This document shows positions 688 through 49,114 of a DNA stretch of 49,161 nt, one piece after another (the stretch's first letter is position 1; the number at the start of each line of letters is the position of its first letter). Below the pieces are notes generated by a model, which saw only the letters and a program-made list of their open reading frames with translations, was not told where the DNA came from and did no database searches. Position numbers and translations under genes: made by a program. The stretch comes from an uncultured Fibrobacter sp. Lineage in GTDB: Bacteria > Fibrobacterota > Fibrobacteria > Fibrobacterales > Fibrobacteraceae. Location of the stretch: positions 1 through 49,161 of the forward strand of contig NZ_CAMZCS010000026.1 of the NCBI RefSeq assembly GCF_947305105.1, given 5' to 3'.

Positions 688-859
688 AATAGTGGTTTGT
701 GGTTAGTGGTTGGTGGTTAGAATCTAGAGCCTAGAGGTTAGGATCTAGGGGTTTTTCAATGGAAATTTAATTCTTTCGCGTTTTAGCGCGGAGGATGCAA
801 AGTTGTTTATAGGGGTTTTTAGGAGGCCCGAGCCTCGAGCCTGGGGCCCCGAGCCTGCT
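688..859. repeat. Heptad-phased intergenic repeat DNA
   Basis: The gap between the RND permease and ettA is filled with degenerate 7-bp repeats. Eight consecutive heptads run from 699 to 754, mostly of the form GNNNYTA (GTGGTTA, GTGGTTG, GTGGTTA, GAATCTA, GAGCCTA, GAGGTTA, GGATCTA, GGGGTTT). A second GC-rich block runs from 825 to 859 (GGCCCGA, GCCTCGA, GCCTGGG, GCCCCGA, GCCTGCT) and touches the stop codon of the RND gene at 858. Between them, near 776-792, is a short CGCG/CGCG inverted repeat. The same words recur at 48.77-49.1 kb and 14.65-14.71 kb. The GC-rich block could also act as a 3' structure for the RND transcript, but there is no T-run typical of an intrinsic terminator. Confidence 0.75.
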
Positions 860-8480: not shown

Positions 8481-10187
8481 CTAACCGGGGAATCGACGGT
8501 TCACGTGCGCTTCGACGACGTTCACCACGTAGTCGCCCAGCTTTTCGCAGTCGTTCACCACGTCCATGTAGTGGACGCCCATCTGGTAGCTGTATTCCTG
8601 GTTCTCGATATCGGTGACGTTCTTCTCCTTGAGGAGTTTGCGGTAGTCGTTGATTTCGTTTTCCAGGTTCAGCGTGCGGTTCGCATCGGCGGACGCATGG
8701 TCGCTAATGACATCGACCATGTTGGTGAGCGCATTGTCGCAAAGCTGCATAATGTGCTTGATATGGCCGTACTGGTTTTCCGTAAAGTCATCCTTACTGC
8801 GGAACTTGCGGTTGATGGCGCGGGCCATGTTGTAGCAGGCATCGCCGATACTCTCGATTTCAGAAATCTCCCTAAGCATCGCCTGGATGATCGTCTTACT
8901 TTCAGGACTCAGGCGGCCTTCCGAAACCTTGTTCAGGTAGTTCGCAATCTCGATTTCCATATTGTCGCTGATTCCCTCGTATTTTTCGATACGGGCGAAC
9001 AGTTTCACGAAATCGTTTTCATCCTTCATCTCGAGCAGTTCGGGCACCATGCGGAACATCTTCTGCGTGCGTGCCGCGAACAAGTTTATTTCCTTGCGGG
9101 CTTCAAAGAGCGAGAGTTCCGCAGTACTCATGAGGCCCGCGCTGATAAACTTGACCTTGAAATCCTCGCCGTCTTCCTTCTCGCGGATAATCCTGCAAAT
9201 GATTTTTTCCATCGGCTTGATGAACCAGATAAGGATAAGCACGTTGCAGAGGTTGAATGCCGTGTGGAAAGCAGAAAGTGCGTAAGTCACGCGTACGCCC
9301 GCCTGGGCAATTTCTTCTTCGGTATGCGGCACGAAATTCGGGTCGAACCCCACGATGCTGCACACTATGTTCACGAACGGGCGGAACACAATCAGAATCC
9401 ACACCACGCCGAACACGTTGAAGAGCATGTGGGCCAAAGCCGCGCGCCTTGCCTGCGTACTTGCCGAAAGGGCCGCGAGGTTCGATGTCACCGTGGTACC
9501 GATGTTTTCGCCCATCACGAGCGCAATGCCCTGGTAAATCGGGAGCACGCCGCTACTGCAGAGCAAGAGCGTAATCGCCATGATGGCCGCAGACGACTGC
9601 ACGCACATAGTAAGGATGCTGCCCAGCAACAGGAAGAGGAGCGTGCTGAAGATCCCCCAGCCGCCGGTCGTCGAAAAGAAGTTGATGACGGCCTGGTTGT
9701 GAGCCAGGTCCATCGCCACGGCATTCTCGCGCAGCGTGGTAAGGCCCAGGAACATGAACGCGAAACCGAACACGAATTCGCCGATACTCTTGGTCGAGTT
9801 CTTCTTGGTGTAAGAAAGGATGATGCCGAGGGCGAAGAAGGGCCACACCACCGAGCTCATGTTGAACTGGAACCCGAATATCGACATGATCCACGCCGTG
9901 GCTGTGGTACCGATGTTCGCGCCCATAATAACAGGAATGGCCTGACTCAACGTGAGCAGGCCAGCATTAACGAAACTTACGGTGAGGACGGTCGTAGCGG
10001 TAGAAGACTGCACCGAGGCCGTGACGAACGTGCCTGTGAGGAGGCCTCCGATACGGTGCTTGGTCATGGTGCCAAGGACTGCGCGGAGGTGCCCGCCGGT
10101 GAGTTTCTGCAAGCCTTCGCTCATCGTCTTCATGCCGAACATGAGGAGCGCAAGGCAACCAATCATTTTAAGAATTGCAAGAATCAT
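8481..10187 (-). CDS. Na+/phosphate cotransporter with C-terminal PhoU domain (copy 1)
   Basis: A 568-residue inner-membrane protein. The N-terminal half (to about residue 340) has the duplicated Na/Pi-cotransporter repeat, with the paired signatures VQSSTATT and VQSSAAIMAI. The C-terminal half (about 355-568) is a helical PhoU-like domain (ARIEKYEGISDNMEIEIANYL, LREISEIESIGDACYNMA). Such proteins import phosphate with sodium and the PhoU part is thought to link transport to signalling. Its ATG overlaps the histidine kinase stop as ATGA, so it is the last gene of a regulator-kinase-transporter operon. A second copy of the same length lies at 12587-14293; the two C-terminal coding regions are almost identical in places even at DNA level (for example 8520-8570 and 12634-12684), which points to a gene duplication. 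Confidence 0.93.
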   Translation of the reverse strand: MILAILKMIGCLALLMFGMKTMSEGLQKLTGGHLRAVLGTMTKHRIGGLLTGTFVTASVQSSTATTVLTVSFVNAGLLTLSQAIPVIMGANIGTTATAWIMSIFGFQFNMSSVVWPFFALGIILSYTKKNSTKSIGEFVFGFAFMFLGLTTLRENAVAMDLAHNQAVINFFSTTGGWGIFSTLLFLLLGSILTMCVQSSAAIMAITLLLCSSGVLPIYQGIALVMGENIGTTVTSNLAALSASTQARRAALAHMLFNVFGVVWILIVFRPFVNIVCSIVGFDPNFVPHTEEEIAQAGVRVTYALSAFHTAFNLCNVLILIWFIKPMEKIICRIIREKEDGEDFKVKFISAGLMSTAELSLFEARKEINLFAARTQKMFRMVPELLEMKDENDFVKLFARIEKYEGISDNMEIEIANYLNKVSEGRLSPESKTIIQAMLREISEIESIGDACYNMARAINRKFRSKDDFTENQYGHIKHIMQLCDNALTNMVDVISDHASADANRTLNLENEINDYRKLLKEKNVTDIENQEYSYQMGVHYMDVVNDCEKLGDYVVNVVEAHVNRRFPG

Positions 10188-12586: not shown

Positions 12587-14293
12587 TTATGTAGAGAATT
12601 TCTTGTTGGCGTGAGCCTCTACCACATTCACCACGTAGTCGCCCAGCTTTTCGCAGTCGTTCACCACGTCCATGTAGTGCACGCCCATCTGGTAGCTGTA
12701 CTTCTGGTTTTCAATATCGTCGACATTCTTCTCCTTGAGGAGCTTGCGGTAGTCGTTAATCTCGTTTTCCAGGTTCAGCGTACGGTTCGCATCCACCTGC
12801 TGGCTATCGTCGAGAACAGCTATCATATGCTCGAGCGCCTTGTCGCACAGGCCCATGATATGCTTGATATGCCCGTACTGCTCCGCGGTAAAATCTTCCT
12901 TGCTGCGGAACTTGCGGTTGATGGCGCGCGCCATGTTGTAGCAGGAATCGCCAATGCTTTCGATTTCGGAAATTTCCCTGAGCATTGCCTGAATGGTCGT
13001 CTTGCTCTCCGGGCTCAGGCGGCCTTCGCTCACCTGGTTCAGGTACTTCGCAATCTCTATTTCCATGTTGTCGCTGATGCCTTCGTACTTCTCAATGCGG
13101 GCGAACAACTTCACGAAGTCGTTCTCTTCCTTCATTTCGAGCAGGTTCGGTACGAAGTTGAACATCTTGCGAGTGCGGGTCGCAAACAGGCTGATTTCCT
13201 TGCGGGCCTCAAGGAGCGAGAGTTCCGGAGTGCCCATCAGGCCAGAGCTAATGAAGTGCAGGCGGGAATCTTCCTCTTCATCGGATTTCTTGGGCTTAAT
13301 GACCCTGCAAACAAATTTTTCGATGTACTTGATGAACCAAATCTGGATGAATGTGTTCGAGACGTTGAACGCCGAGTGGAACGTGGCGAGCACCACGGAA
13401 ATCTTCGCAAGGTTCTTTTCGTAACCCGGTTCGCCCATGTGGATGGAGAGGTCGAAGCCAACCACGTTACAGACGGCAGCGAGGAACCACTTGAGCACGA
13501 TGATTACCCAGATAACGCCTATCACGTTAATCGTAAAGTGAGCAAGGGCCGCGCGGCGAGCCTGCGTATTGGCGGAAAGCGCCACGATGTTCGCGGTAAT
13601 CGTCGTACCGATGTTTTCGCCAAGCACGAGCATGATGCCCTGGTCAATATGGAGCACGCCGGTGGAGCAGAGGATCATCGTGATGGCCATGATGGCGGCA
13701 GAAGACTGCACGCACAGGGTAAGCACCGTACCCATCACGAGGAAGAACAGCGAGTTGAAGAAGTTCGGGTCGCTGAAGCGGGCAAAGAACGAACTGATGG
13801 AAGCGCTCGCACCCGGATCCTGTACTACCGCGAAACCAGTTTCCTTGAGGGTCGTAAGACCGAGGAAGAGAAAACCGACACCGAACAGGAACTCGCCCAG
13901 CACGCGCTTCTTGTTCAGGTACACGAGAATGATACCGATGAAGAACGCCGGGTAGACGAAGTTCGCGATGTTGAACGAGAACCCGAGGCTCATGATCCAT
14001 GCCGTTACCGTCGTACCGATGTGGGCGCCGAGGATAATCGAGATGGCCTGCATGAGCGTAAGGAGCCCCGCATTAACAAAAGAGACCGTCATCAACGTGG
14101 TGGCGGTCGAACTTTGTACCGAGGCTGTAACGAACATACCGGTGAGCATACCCGTGAAACGGTTTGTGGTCATGGTTCCGAGCACGTGTCTGAGCTGCGG
14201 ACCGGCCATTTTTTGAAGAGCTTCGCTCATGGACTTCATACCGAACATGAGCAGGGCCAAGCACCCTAACATTTTGAGAGCCATCCAAGTCAT
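12587..14293 (-). CDS. Na+/phosphate cotransporter with C-terminal PhoU domain (copy 2)
   Basis: A 568-residue paralogue of the protein at 8481-10187, with the same layout: an N-terminal duplicated Na/Pi-cotransporter region (VQSSTATT and VQSSAAIMAI signatures) and a C-terminal PhoU-like helical domain (ARIEKYEGISDNMEIEIAKYL). The start at ATG 14293 (MTWMALKMLGCLALLMFGMK) makes it exactly as long as copy 1 and aligns with its MILAILKMIGCLALLMFGMK; a GTG at 14323 would add ten residues. The two copies differ most in the central loops and in the cytoplasmic linker before the PhoU part, where this copy carries PKKSDEEEDS. It is transcribed alone and precedes the regulator operon in the same direction. 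Different affinities or ion use are possible but cannot be read from the sequence. Confidence 0.93.
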   Translation of the reverse strand: MTWMALKMLGCLALLMFGMKSMSEALQKMAGPQLRHVLGTMTTNRFTGMLTGMFVTASVQSSTATTLMTVSFVNAGLLTLMQAISIILGAHIGTTVTAWIMSLGFSFNIANFVYPAFFIGIILVYLNKKRVLGEFLFGVGFLFLGLTTLKETGFAVVQDPGASASISSFFARFSDPNFFNSLFFLVMGTVLTLCVQSSAAIMAITMILCSTGVLHIDQGIMLVLGENIGTTITANIVALSANTQARRAALAHFTINVIGVIWVIIVLKWFLAAVCNVVGFDLSIHMGEPGYEKNLAKISVVLATFHSAFNVSNTFIQIWFIKYIEKFVCRVIKPKKSDEEEDSRLHFISSGLMGTPELSLLEARKEISLFATRTRKMFNFVPNLLEMKEENDFVKLFARIEKYEGISDNMEIEIAKYLNQVSEGRLSPESKTTIQAMLREISEIESIGDSCYNMARAINRKFRSKEDFTAEQYGHIKHIMGLCDKALEHMIAVLDDSQQVDANRTLNLENEINDYRKLLKEKNVDDIENQKYSYQMGVHYMDVVNDCEKLGDYVVNVVEAHANKKFST

Positions 14294-14382
14294 AGAATAG
14301 GACCTTCCTATAAGGAGCGCCACTACCGGATCATCGTCGCTGCCTTTCAGCTAGTTCGGGCTCATGGCGGTGAATTGTTGTT

Positions 14383-14476: not shown

Positions 14477-14708
14477 GATGAGGTGTGAGGTCGGGGCTAA
14501 AGCCCCTTTGAGGTCGCTTCTACTCATAGAGCATAACTCAACTAAAGAACTAAAGTTCTTAGTTTCGTATAGCTTTGAGCAATGAGGTCGCGACCTTCGG
14601 TCGCTTTGAGGCATGAGGTCGGCACTTCGTGCCTTTGAGGTATGAGGCATCTTGCCTCACTGTTCATCGCTCACTGCTCGAGCCTCGGGCCCCGCGCCTC
14701 GTACCTCA
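14477..14708. repeat. Stem-loop mosaic with heptad linkers (site A)
   Basis: The gap between the FISUMP lipoprotein gene and the Na/Pi transporter is almost wholly made of small perfect stem-loops joined by 7-bp linker words. Stem-loops: 14493-14506 (GGGGC/TAAA/GCCCC), 14545-14560 (AAGAAC/TAAA/GTTCTT), 14590-14604 (GCGACC/TTC/GGTCGC), 14621-14633 (GGCAC/TTC/GTGCC) and 14643-14659 (TGAGGCA/TCT/TGCCTCA). Linkers have the form TTTGAGG-YRTGAGG. After the last hairpin the heptads continue as the complementary form (GCCTCAC, TGTTCAT, CGCTCAC, TGCTCGA, GCCTCGG, GCCCCGC, GCCTCGT, ACCTCAT) from 14654 to 14709, ending at the stop codon of the FISUMP gene. No coding potential is seen. Confidence 0.8.
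14505..14590 (+). repeat. 86-bp direct repeat, copy 1 (partner 17245-17330)
   Basis: An 86-bp segment beginning CCTTTGAGGTCGCTTC and ending AATGAGGTCG occurs again at 17245-17330 in the same orientation, offset by 2740 bp, with one mismatch (C at 14580, G at 17320). It contains the AAGAAC/TAAA/GTTCTT stem-loop. The two copies flank the FISUMP lipoprotein gene, so recombination between them would delete that gene. Confidence 0.92.
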
Positions 14709-17036
14709 TTAGTTTTTCACGCAGCGAAGCGAGAATCCACGGTCTTTCTGGTTGTAGCTGGACAGATAATAATCGAGATAATTATAACGATAATCAAGAT
14801 ACCAGTAAGCGGCTCGGATTTTACCCGTTTCTGTAGAACTCCAGAAATTCGCAAAGTAACCTGCATCGTCATAGATGAGGCGGCTATAATCAGCACTTGG
14901 ATCGGCATAAGAGCCATAATAAGCTCCCGTTGGAATCGCAGAGAATCCATAAGCATCCGAAGACCTGGTTGCCGTAGAGTACGAAGTCCACCCTTTCTGA
15001 GATTTTAACTGCCCCGAATGGTCGTTCGTATACCCGTCGTAGCCCTCCATCTTGGCAACATACCTCTTGAGTTGGAACCACTCGGAAGTATCTGGAACAT
15101 GCCATCCCTCAGGACAAATACCCCGGTGCGGAGTTTCAATCAACGCTTCCGCAAGTAAAGACTGATACGAGCTAGGTATATCCATAGCGGCAGTCCAAGA
15201 ATAGAGTCGACCACCGACTTCGCAGTTTTCTTTCTTGTTCTTGTAACACCAGCTGTTATCAACTAGGTTCACATTTTTTTCATCGTAAAAATTCAGATTT
15301 TCCGCCATCCAGGTTTGCAAACCGATTTCAACAGTCTTGTATGTTTTCCCGTCACGACCGTCCTTCAACGTTCCATAATGTGCATCCTGGCTCAGGTAAT
15401 CCCCTTTTTTATGGTCGTAAACGGCCATCTGGCGCCAATTGCCCGCGCCCCCATCACATATGTAATCAACCGAAGTTCCCGAGACTTTCGATCCATTCTT
15501 ATTACTCGTACAAGCGGCACCTAGGGAGGTTTCTATAGACGTCGGCAAACGCCATCTTTCATCATCGCAAACGTATGTCTTGCCTAAGTTATCACTATAA
15601 GCGTTGGTCATCTTTATCATGGAAGCATCGGAACCTGAATTGCACACGCCAAGTCCATAAATAGTTCCAACAAATATATGGATGTATTTTTCAAAATTCG
15701 GAACGGCTTTGTTCATGGCGGTCAGTTTCGAGCGCGTCGTAGCATAATTACGCGTCGTCTGCATCGCCCAGTCAGCTATGTTGACTTTCGCAGCAGAGTC
15801 ATTCCAGAGGCCGTCAGCCTCGAAATCCGCAGTCATGGAGGTCAATCGGCTGGAAAGATCCGCATCGTCTAGAGAGCCCTGCAAGAGAATCGATGCCGCA
15901 AGAAGTTTCGCGTCATCTTCGTAGCTACCGTAAATACTCAAATCTTCGAACGCATGGTTGTTGACTCCCCAACCGAATGCGGCGAGCACTTCCTTTTCGG
16001 CAGCCGATTTTGCCGCCGGGAAATTGCTATACGAACCGCTTTGCGTGAACAAATAAATGGCACGCTTGTGCGCCAAGTGGCCCAAGACATTAATGTTCGC
16101 CGAAGACCTCCCGCTCAAGTCGGCTAAAGATTTAATCGTAAGCTGCCCTGTAGACCTCTTAGCGGAGTTTTCGTTATAGAAATAACCATTCGCTTGGAAC
16201 AATGCATATTGATTTACAAGTGACACCTTTGGCGAAGTGTACGCACCCAAGTCACTGGACACTTCCCATTCAAAGGTCGTACCCGTCGGGTCCATGTCTT
16301 CGTCGAGTTCAATCAACCTGATTATCGAACCGCTGGTGTACGGTCCCTTTTCGGCGACTCCCGTAAAAGACTTTTTAGAAATGACGACGTTCTTCACCGT
16401 ATCTTTGGCATCCTTGACACTGGAACTCGATTCGGGAATGCTACTGGAACTTGACTTCTTGGAACTGCTACTGGATTTCGCCTCTGGCTTTGACGAAGAA
16501 GACGCTACCTTAGAAGAAGAAGATTTTTCTTCCGAAGCCGAGGAGGTTCCCTTGGAAGAAGACGATTTTTCTTCTGATGCTGAGGAGTTGCCCTTGGAAG
16601 AGGAAGATTTTTCCTCTGACGCAGAGGAGTCGCCTTTAGAAGAGGAAGATTTTTCCTCTGATGCAGAGGACTCGCCTTTAGAAGAGGAAGACGACTTTTT
16701 CTCCGATGCAGAGGACTTGCCTTTGGAGGAGGAAGATTTTTCCTCTGATGCAGAGGATTTTCCCTTGGAAGACGAAGACTTCTTTGTGACAGCACTTACA
16801 AGTTCTTCCCACGTGCCCTTCTTGCACAGATAATCAAGGCTGTCTTCTTCGACAAAAATGACATCACCTTCCCTGTCAGGAATACATTTTCCCAAATCGT
16901 AGATGGTTTCTACAGAGGAACCGTTCTCAGGGACGCCGCCCACCGTATCAGAAGCATCCGAAGTAGAATCTTCTCCGCAAGAGATCAAGAGAAATACCGT
17001 TGCAGCAGACAGCGTCAGCAAGGAAAATTTGTTCAT
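14709..17036 (-). CDS. FISUMP-domain lipoprotein with Ser/Lys/Glu repeat linker
   Basis: A 775-residue surface or periplasmic lipoprotein. The signal peptide ends in lipobox LLISC (Cys20). Residues 47-83 hold a small module (LGKCIPDREG... VEEDSLDYLCKKGTWEEL) that recurs in the other FISUMP protein of this window. Residues 87-171 are six repeats of about 14 residues, SSSSKGxSSASEEK, followed by more Ser-rich sequence to about 205. A middle domain of unknown type (about 215-450) contains VAEKGPYTSGSIIRL. The C-terminus (about 555-775) is a FISUMP domain: TYKTVEIGLQTWMAENLNF, GRLYSWTAAMDIP, GICPEGWHVPDTSEW, FSLRCVKN. The family is named from Fibrobacter succinogenes; its function is not established. 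ATG 17036 with MNKFSLL start. No neighbour suggests an operon. Confidence 0.92.
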   Translation of the reverse strand: MNKFSLLTLSAATVFLLISCGEDSTSDASDTVGGVPENGSSVETIYDLGKCIPDREGDVIFVEEDSLDYLCKKGTWEELVSAVTKKSSSSKGKSSASEEKSSSSKGKSSASEKKSSSSSKGESSASEEKSSSSKGDSSASEEKSSSSKGNSSASEEKSSSSKGTSSASEEKSSSSKVASSSSKPEAKSSSSSKKSSSSSIPESSSSVKDAKDTVKNVVISKKSFTGVAEKGPYTSGSIIRLIELDEDMDPTGTTFEWEVSSDLGAYTSPKVSLVNQYALFQANGYFYNENSAKRSTGQLTIKSLADLSGRSSANINVLGHLAHKRAIYLFTQSGSYSNFPAAKSAAEKEVLAAFGWGVNNHAFEDLSIYGSYEDDAKLLAASILLQGSLDDADLSSRLTSMTADFEADGLWNDSAAKVNIADWAMQTTRNYATTRSKLTAMNKAVPNFEKYIHIFVGTIYGLGVCNSGSDASMIKMTNAYSDNLGKTYVCDDERWRLPTSIETSLGAACTSNKNGSKVSGTSVDYICDGGAGNWRQMAVYDHKKGDYLSQDAHYGTLKDGRDGKTYKTVEIGLQTWMAENLNFYDEKNVNLVDNSWCYKNKKENCEVGGRLYSWTAAMDIPSSYQSLLAEALIETPHRGICPEGWHVPDTSEWFQLKRYVAKMEGYDGYTNDHSGQLKSQKGWTSYSTATRSSDAYGFSAIPTGAYYGSYADPSADYSRLIYDDAGYFANFWSSTETGKIRAAYWYLDYRYNYLDYYLSSYNQKDRGFSLRCVKN
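16524..16778 (-). repeat. In-frame 42-bp tandem repeats encoding SSSSKGxSSASEEK
   Basis: Six tandem copies of a 42-bp unit (one unit is 45 bp because of an extra Ser codon) inside the FISUMP lipoprotein gene. The unit keeps reading frame and alternates Ser-rich with charged blocks. One residue per unit changes in order K, K, E, D, N, T. This gives a flexible, charge-patterned linker and a site where copy number could vary between strains. Confidence 0.9.
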
Positions 17037-17459
17037 ATACCAGCCTTATGGTTATCTGATTTCACCATCAATCAAATAGCGTTTCTGCTATTGAGAATGC
17101 CCCTTAGAAAACCCACAAATGACCGTGGACTCTCCACACCCGACAATCCCGCTTGCAAATATATCTTTTTCTTTCGCCAAGTTCAAGACAAACTTATCTG
17201 CAGCAAAAAAACGTACAAAAAAACACAAAAAAAGTCAAAAAGGACCTTTGAGGTCGCTTCTACTCATAGAGCATAACTCAACTAAAGAACTAAAGTTCTT
17301 AGTTTCGTATAGCTTTGAGGAATGAGGTCGGCACTTCGTGCCTTTGAGGTGTGAGGTCGCGACCTTCGGTCGCTTTGAGGCGTGAGGGACAAGGAACTCA
17401 TGGCTCACTGCTCACGGCTCATTGCTCATCGCTGGGGCCTCGTGCCCCGAGCCTTTTCC
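17037..17459. other. Intergenic region with stem-loop mosaic (site B)
   Basis: This 423-bp gap separates ispF (downstream) from the FISUMP lipoprotein gene. Its right flank of the FISUMP gene (about 17037-17240) is AT-rich and contains a perfect 6-bp stem-loop at 17075-17092 (AATAGC/GCTATT) and A-runs; I cannot place a promoter with confidence. From 17245 it repeats the modules of site A in another order: the 86-bp repeat, then GGCAC/TTC/GTGCC at 17330-17342 and GCGACC/TTC/GGTCGC at 17359-17373, then heptads AACTCAT, GGCTCAC, TGCTCAC, GGCTCAT, TGCTCAT, CGCTGGG, GCCTCGT, GCCCCGA from 17395 to 17450, ending next to the ispF stop. Confidence 0.75.
17245..17330 (+). repeat. 86-bp direct repeat, copy 2 (partner 14505-14590)
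   Basis: Second copy of the segment at 14505-14590, same orientation, one mismatch (G at 17320). What follows differs in order: at site A the next module is the GCGACC stem-loop then the GGCAC one; here it is GGCAC then GCGACC. This shuffling of modules around a fixed repeat is visible directly in the sequence. Confidence 0.92.
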
Positions 17460-48738: not shown

Positions 48739-48771
48739 AAGGTGAAGAATAGAAAAAAAAGTAAACAGTGG

Positions 48772-48852
48772 TTGGTGGTTAGTGGCGATGAGGTGTGAGG
48801 GAAGTTGGAAGTAGACAGTAGAAAGTAGATAGTAGGAAGTGGGATTGTCATT
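48772..48852 (+). repeat. 81-bp heptad-phased direct repeat, copy 1
   Basis: Matches 49034-49114 with two mismatches and an offset of 262 bp. The unit is itself 7-bp periodic: after GTGGTTA come GTGGCGA, TGAGGTG, TGAGGGA, AGTTGGA, AGTAGAC, AGTAGAA, AGTAGAT, AGTAGGA and AGTGGGA. Confidence 0.93.
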
Positions 48853-48905
48853 GCAAGGGGTGAAAACCCCGAAGCAATCTCTAGATATGAGTTAGGGATT
48901 AGGAT

Positions 48906-48932
48906 CTAGGGGCTAGGGGCTAGGGGCTAGGG
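48906..48932 (+). repeat. CTAGGGG tandem heptamer, potential G-quadruplex
   Basis: Nearly four exact copies of CTAGGGG. Four G-tracts of three or more are separated by three-base CTA loops, a layout suited to G-quadruplex formation on the plus strand. Similar but degenerate heptads (GGGATTA, GGATCTA) precede it. Confidence 0.85.
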
Positions 48933-49033
48933 AGAAACATCACGGCTTCGCCGTCTGTTAATAACGCACGAAGTGCGTGATACTTATTCACTAGCCTTTA
49001 GTCTCTAATCTCTAGCCTCTTTTTAATTAGTGA

Positions 49034-49114
49034 TTGGTGGTTAGGGGCGATGAGGTGTGAGGGAAGTTGGAAGTAGACAGAAGAAAGTAGATAGTAGGAA
49101 GTGGGATTGTCATT
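49034..49114 (+). repeat. 81-bp heptad-phased direct repeat, copy 2
   Basis: Second copy of 48772-48852 in the same orientation, with G for T at the AGTGG position and A for T in the CAGTAG word. The 181 bp between the copies hold stem-loops and the CTAGGGG array, so the pair could recombine and delete them. Confidence 0.93.

Follow-up and report, generated by a model that had tools for sequence, protein, structure and literature searches.

The window, i.e. the whole 49,161-nucleotide stretch of DNA analysed here, originates from an uncultured Fibrobacter sp. (genome G000, contig NZ_CAMZCS010000026.1) and contains arrays of seven-base words (heptads) in its larger intergenic gaps. The words are of two types, designated AG-type and CT-type, and are combined with small hairpins as follows:

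48762-48852, forward strand: AG-type heptad block, copy 1 (GTGGTTG/GTGGTTA, TGAGGTG and AGTAGAC/AGTAGAA/AGTAGGA words), 95% identical to 49024-49114
48847-48881, forward strand: REP-like hairpin GTCATTGCAAGGGGTGAAAACCCCGAAGCAATCTC, non-heptadic; the same module stands beside many other copies
48889-48932, forward strand: AG-type left arm (GGGATTA, GGATCTA and CTAGGGG words), which the fold pairs in register to the right arm
48933-48989, forward strand: hairpin core 'HP-A', two small hairpins within an ATCACG/CGTGAT stem; a dispersed repeat with at least 41 copies in G000
48990-49021, forward strand: CT-type right arm (CTAGCCT, TTAGTCT, CTAATCT, CTAGCCT), pairing with the left arm
49024-49114, forward strand: AG-type heptad block, copy 2, a 91-bp, 95% copy of 48762-48852
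690-857, forward strand: gap with AG-type heptads (690-760) and then CT-type heptads (829-856)
14480-14708, forward strand: AG-type heptads (TGAGGTR), accompanied by several small hairpins and followed by CT-type heptads (14654-14704); fold-back at 14560-14700, z -3.3
17239-17459, forward strand: second copy of the 14480-14708 composite; AG-type and then CT-type heptads (17397-17450)

The region 48762-49114 is a composite, with two AG-type blocks placed around the REP-like hairpin and one element made of an AG-type arm, a core and a CT-type arm; its order, A-A-C-A (A, AG-type; C, CT-type), is that of one element with an extra AG-type block at the contig end. A preliminary description, made from the letters of the window, had read positions 48766-49114 as consecutive 7-mers in one continuous run, which they are not, since the REP-like hairpin (48847-48881) and the hairpin core (approximately 48933-48989) are non-heptadic. 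The exact 7-bp period that it claimed there is nevertheless real: identity at lag 7 was 0.512 versus 0.274 in dinucleotide-preserving shuffles (z 9.5), with extra peaks at lags 14 and 21, and the heptads that it listed in other large gaps of the window were confirmed as well (z 4.4-5.3). A search of the window against Rfam gave no match. At least 41 relatives of the HP-A core plus arms occur across G000, in both orientations, and 23-46 matches were listed in each of three Fibrobacter relatives.

Several other repeats occur in the same stretch. The REP-like hairpin GTCATTGCGAGGGGCGAAGCCCTGAAGCAATCTC, present at 48847-48881 and at many loci, recurs beside heptad elements, and similar modules (GTCATCCTGAGCG...GGATC) occupy the same gaps in other Fibrobacter species. 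Positions 14480-14650 and 17239-17390 consist of tandem modules of the form TGAGGTCG-hairpin-CTTTGAGG, in which the stem sequence varies and self-complementarity is kept. The two near-identical composites (97% over 92 bp) flank a gene of 775 amino acids (14709-17036), which itself contains an in-frame, acidic 42-nt repeat in six to seven copies (16508-16779). Two paralogous genes on the minus strand (8499-10187 and 12605-14323) lie about 4.1 kb apart and contain stretches that are 74-90% identical at the DNA level.

The excess at lag 7, which was to be sought against other lags and shuffled controls, extends to the genome, which contigs of named Fibrobacter match at up to 95% over 6.7 kb and which is thus a Fibrobacter. 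In 1.19 Mb of G000, 119 lag-7 islands were found at the stricter threshold, versus 0-2 at lags 5, 8, 13, 16, 17 and 19, while islands at lags 6, 9, 12, 15 and 18 were coding repeats; extrapolation to the whole genome gives about 420 lag-7 islands. According to a hexamer-based gene call, 129 of 141 islands in the scanned part were intergenic and 12 were coding, and coding DNA showed a lag-7 identity of just 0.244. Thus, the statement that coding regions do not show the period is correct as a tendency, but some ORFs do carry arrays, such as the in-frame array in a membrane protein of contig C1 (280009-281163, locus L045:9-1163), which lies at L045:643-724 and encodes a hydrophobic stretch. In other species, the linker of this ORF contains different heptads or hairpin modules, so that coding sequence is supplied by the repeats. 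Like heptameric simple-sequence repeats (SSR/STRR), the arrays of the window and of G000 are tandem 7-bp units, mainly intergenic, but their units are not near-identical: mixed words recur from a small vocabulary. The contrast drawn earlier with near-identical cyanobacterial units was too sharp, because mixed heptamers are found in Microcystis (PMC4679880). A universal role of the heptads as stop codons was rejected on inspection, as many words contain none.

The heptad arrays are arms of fold-back elements with the fixed order AG-type heptads, core, CT-type heptads. Among the G000 gaps that hold both array types, 23 read AC and one ACAC, with none in the order CA (24:0), and gaps without arrays showed no left/right asymmetry. 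Convergent gaps with both types give the same picture (seven AC, one ACAC). Array density depends on gap type, peaking at 2.0 per kb in convergent gaps and falling to 0.37 in divergent ones. An arrangement with AG-type words on the left and CT-type words on the right is identical on either strand, indicating that the polarity is a property of the element and not of gene direction. In the predicted RNA fold of 48883-49022, the arms pair in register (z -4.5), and another copy (L041) reached z -8.7; some arrays fold poorly, for example L049 (z +0.75). As in the intervening sequences (IVS) of 23S rRNA that carry an S23 gene, complementary ends form a stem around the core at 48883-49022 and 14560-14700, and the window copies have AG-type heptamers to the left of the core.

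Comparison with relatives clarifies how the period is kept. In one orthologous gap (L043), heptads occupy 192, 213 and 234 bp in G000, G013 and G031; G008 has other heptads, G018 has 11 bp and four species have a 4-bp gene overlap. Arrays had been expected at the orthologous gaps of relatives, and this held in part: other Fibrobacter do carry heptads, often of other words (for the same gap, e.g. fold-backs of TAGGTNN in G001 and of ATTGATG in G011), but the orthologous gaps are often empty. Between G000 and G031, indels of at least 4 bp were multiples of 7 in 19 of 35 cases in heptads, 4 of 32 in other intergenic DNA and 4 of 49 in coding DNA, whereas substitutions per site were similar (0.068, 0.074 and 0.081 in heptads, intergenic and coding DNA). 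G031 has conserved the window locus as well; there, the left arm of the core element differs by a single indel of exactly 7 bp (CCCTAGC). Length change in 7-bp steps at ordinary substitution rates argues that slippage, not selection, keeps the period. Of the two causes offered in the preliminary description, a replication mechanism that preserves spacing is therefore supported and selection is not; the preserved spacing is ordinary slippage inside the fold-back arms. The period had also been described as kept while the word drifts, which is true of the period, but many 'drifted' words are identical in G000 and G031, so the drift is old, and the words come from the small vocabulary mentioned above.

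The same words and the same polarity occur far outside Fibrobacter. A pattern of 28 bases of AGTAG heptads matched at least 118 stretches in a species-level genome collection, among them Bacteroidota, Alphaproteobacteria, Cyanobacteria, Acidobacteria, Verrucomicrobia, Planctomycetes, Nitrospinota, Chloroflexi and others. A common vocabulary was rejected as evidence on its own, given that a reversed control pattern matched about as many Pseudomonadota genomes, its words being purine-rich heptads too. As for polarity, 105 non-Fibrobacter loci included 45 with the order AC, two with CA and one with ACA. This order agrees with the position biases published for G-rich heptamers, which, whichever strand carries them, sit close to the ORF on their 5' side (PMC4692102), and for TAACTGA repeats, which are mostly forward and ahead of start codons (PMC4679880).

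In some elements the core is a gene. In the gap C5:107667-108144, found in G000 and G031, AG-type heptads are followed by an ORF and CT-type heptads, and the stop codon of the ORF lies within the right arm. This ORF (C5:107737-108108), flanked by GAGTTRT and AACTGAY arms, matches the S23 family (PF05635, E 4.7e-41) and the NCBIfam four helix bundle protein. PF05635 is a four-helix-bundle protein with solved relatives 2GSC and 2RLD, and the solved relative from Xanthomonas is a homopentamer. Altogether, G000 contains three loci with an S23 ORF as the core, whose arms use disjoint word sets, and further tblastn matches to S23 among the loci then examined were all beside heptads. The window contains no S23 gene or recognisable remnant, and the same applies to most Fibrobacter copies. 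Two candidate links between the coding and non-coding arrays failed: S23 remnants were found in none of the non-coding arrays, and the S23 arms are not special as sources of words, as 83 of 138 non-coding islands share their words, versus a mean of 91 for random trios of non-coding gaps. The S23 copies are, thus, typical members of the set and not proven sources.

The association with S23 was also read in the opposite direction. Nineteen plasmid S23 loci were picked by protein search alone, regardless of repeats, and their flanks were then read: tandem repeats were present on the right side of all 19 (14 with period 7 and five with period 8). For all 25 S23 loci, repeats occurred on the right in 24 and on the left in 19, compared with 9% of control windows (2.7% for period 7). 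A strict 100-bp count of AG-left/CT-right was reached by 17 of the 25; the Pseudanabaena and Oscillatoria loci, with same-strand repeats on both sides, fail it. Five S23 elements (L424, L431, L433, L436 and L437) have 8-bp arms and not 7-bp ones, so the period looks like a trait of the element lineage and not like a constraint common to all.

Heptads likewise pointed to S23. In G067, G169, G185 and G285, a pattern search of 299 Pseudomonadota genomes placed plus- and minus-strand heptad arrays at a distance of about 410 bp from each other, and a later family search found an S23 gene inside the heptad pair in all four of these alphaproteobacterial genomes. Across Pseudomonadota (298 genomes, the centre excluded), S23 was present in 15 of the 22 genomes with heptads and in 32 of the 276 without them (odds ratio 16, p 8e-9), a p-value that is optimistic because the genomes are related, several looking like one rhizobial group. 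All 10 Fibrobacter with at least 30 AGTAG matches have S23, and none of the 13 lacking S23 reaches 30 (p 0.007, likewise optimistic among related genomes). Some S23-less Fibrobacter still carry short heptads, and G026 and G038 have heptad islands with no S23 match. A search of viral contigs with one S23 query found no relative. Probably, the heptad arms with their fixed polarity represent a class that spans phyla and in which the coding members have an S23 gene; the window copies are best read as non-coding members of this class, relatives by their arms only. The fold-back polarity and the S23 link are new relative to the preliminary description, and a search of the openly accessible literature found no paper stating a heptad-S23 link.

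Empty and filled sites show the elements as insertions. Picosynechococcus PCC 7003 has an S23 element between cas10 and cmr3 where only 12 bp separate the two genes in PCC 7002. In one Nostoc strain, two plasmids have S23 elements that differ from each other (one with GAGTCAG arms, one with AAAGGGA arms) and lie at two consecutive stop/start junctions of an operon, which in related plasmids measure 1-3 bp and lack the element, placing the insertion exactly between the stop and start codons. Neither the Nostoc nor the Picosynechococcus pairs showed a clear target-site duplication of the kind that marks MITEs, the tandem ends hampering the scoring of short ones.

Several known systems resemble these elements. 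One is the 23S rRNA IVS of Coxiella, Leptospira and others, in which an S23 ORF stands between complementary ends. In Coxiella, two or three GACAGAT heptamers and a degenerate one, strain-variable in number, are located directly upstream of the S23p ORF (PMC4990558), so the rRNA IVS shows the same AG-type left arm; an IVS with this ORF has been termed a selfish element. IVS are located in 23S rRNA helices and excised by RNase III, whereas the elements of this study are found between protein genes, their heptad arms are longer, and the majority of the Fibrobacter copies are non-coding. The TAACTGA repeats of Beggiatoaceae, Cyanobacteria and Bacteroidetes are intergenic heptamers with 7-nt indel steps, and their mostly forward (CT-type) placement before start codons fits the polarity found here; the words AACTGAT and AACTGAC are present in G000. 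They were interpreted as possible translational regulator sites, with no fold-back polarity or S23 link reported (MacGregor 2015). The GGGNATC heptamers of Xanthomonas and Nostoc are also intergenic, their G-rich strand near the 5' ORF corresponding to AG-left/CT-right, and the S23 protein solved as 2GSC comes from Xanthomonas, but they were read as G-quadruplex motifs and said to be unassociated with mobile elements (Rehm 2015). REP/REPIN sequences with RAYT (Y1) transposases are similarly small, dispersed, palindromic and intergenic, whereas the arms here are tandem heptads and G000 has no Y1 transposase. The heptanucleotide STRR of cyanobacteria are intergenic 7-bp tandem units, and the cyanobacterial S23 elements found here carry such arms. 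To our knowledge, STRR are known as repeats only, and no element structure has been assigned to them (see also PMC4692102).

The explanation that we consider probable is that fold-back elements with AG- and CT-type heptad arms insert at gene boundaries, their full-length members carrying an S23 gene (PF05635) and many others, including the window copies, having a hairpin core only or nothing between the arms. The window copies would be non-coding derivatives of S23 elements. The S23 protein might bind the arms, as DNA or RNA, and drive their spread in trans, in which case S23 would mobilise the heptad elements; slippage would then lengthen or shorten the arms by whole heptads, and point mutations would cause the drift of the words. 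An IVS in rRNA would then be an element of this kind lodged in a 23S rRNA helix. As a more tentative extension, it is possible, though somewhat less likely than not, that the elements form an unnamed cross-phylum class of minimal elements that spreads between genes, in which a pentameric S23 acts on heptads with no known transposase or reverse transcriptase, which accounts for a large share of bacterial heptamers and of which the rRNA IVS is one branch. The Y1 transposase (PF01797) and reverse transcriptase (PF00078) families were both absent from G000 (99.97% complete).

It might be argued that the arrays are ordinary simple-sequence repeats, arising by chance, slipping in 7-bp steps and decaying by point mutation, with no element involved and S23 merely situated in repeat-rich gaps. 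The 7-bp indels and ordinary substitution rates would be expected in that case, and heptamers are over-represented among bacterial SSRs (PMC4692102). Yet chance repeats would not explain the AG-left/CT-right order of mixed gaps (24:0 in G000 and 45:2 in other phyla), the same core at dozens of loci, the joint appearance of arms and S23 in a single insertion at places where relatives have none, or the fact that arm pairs predicted S23 positions; this explanation is improbable and already hard to keep. A possibility that deserves more weight, albeit a doubtful one, is that the mobile fold-backs are real but are moved by some other enzyme, borne by the host or the element, with S23 as a passenger or accessory. 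Most Fibrobacter elements and several array-bearing relatives lack S23, as such an arrangement would allow, whereas the genome-level co-occurrence of S23 and heptads, the contrast in density, and the absence of PF01797 and PF00078 from G000 speak against it.

The density peak in convergent gaps (against the low in divergent ones) and the strong folds could also suit regulatory or terminator hairpins selected at operon boundaries. This is very unlikely, as orthologous junctions are empty or have different words in close relatives, the arrays show no extra conservation, and polarity is constant whatever the gene orientation. Finally, a telomerase-like or DGR-like reverse transcriptase, or else a REP-type Y1 transposase, might add the repeats; AG-type extension of both 3' ends would yield the polarity, and S23 is related to the DGR protein Avd, but its match to the Avd model is weak (NCBIfam E 1.6e-7), and G000, among the densest genomes, has neither a PF00078 partner, unlike DGR systems, nor PF01797. 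Repeat addition has, in our estimation, hardly any probability and is essentially refuted for G000, except for an enzyme so divergent that these models would miss it.

S23, or 23S rRNA intervening-sequence, proteins are a widespread family whose function is not known (PMC4990558); the heptameric repeats of bacteria are a long-standing observation with no established cause. The S23 link gives both a concrete, testable setting, and the two puzzles, the role of S23 and the abundance of 7-base repeats, seem to merge into a single question that can be tested; if the link is true, S23 should act on the heptad arms. The link also accounts for the biases of strand and position published for GGGNATC and TAACTGA repeats.

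S23 elements were also observed in other junctions of CRISPR-Cas operons, namely in L422 and L428 (cas6/cas4) besides L424 (cas10/cmr3). An association of the 23S rRNA IVP with CRISPR adaptation modules has been recorded (PMC10910872), and insertions of S23 elements in cas junctions may explain this 'CRISPR-associated' listing.
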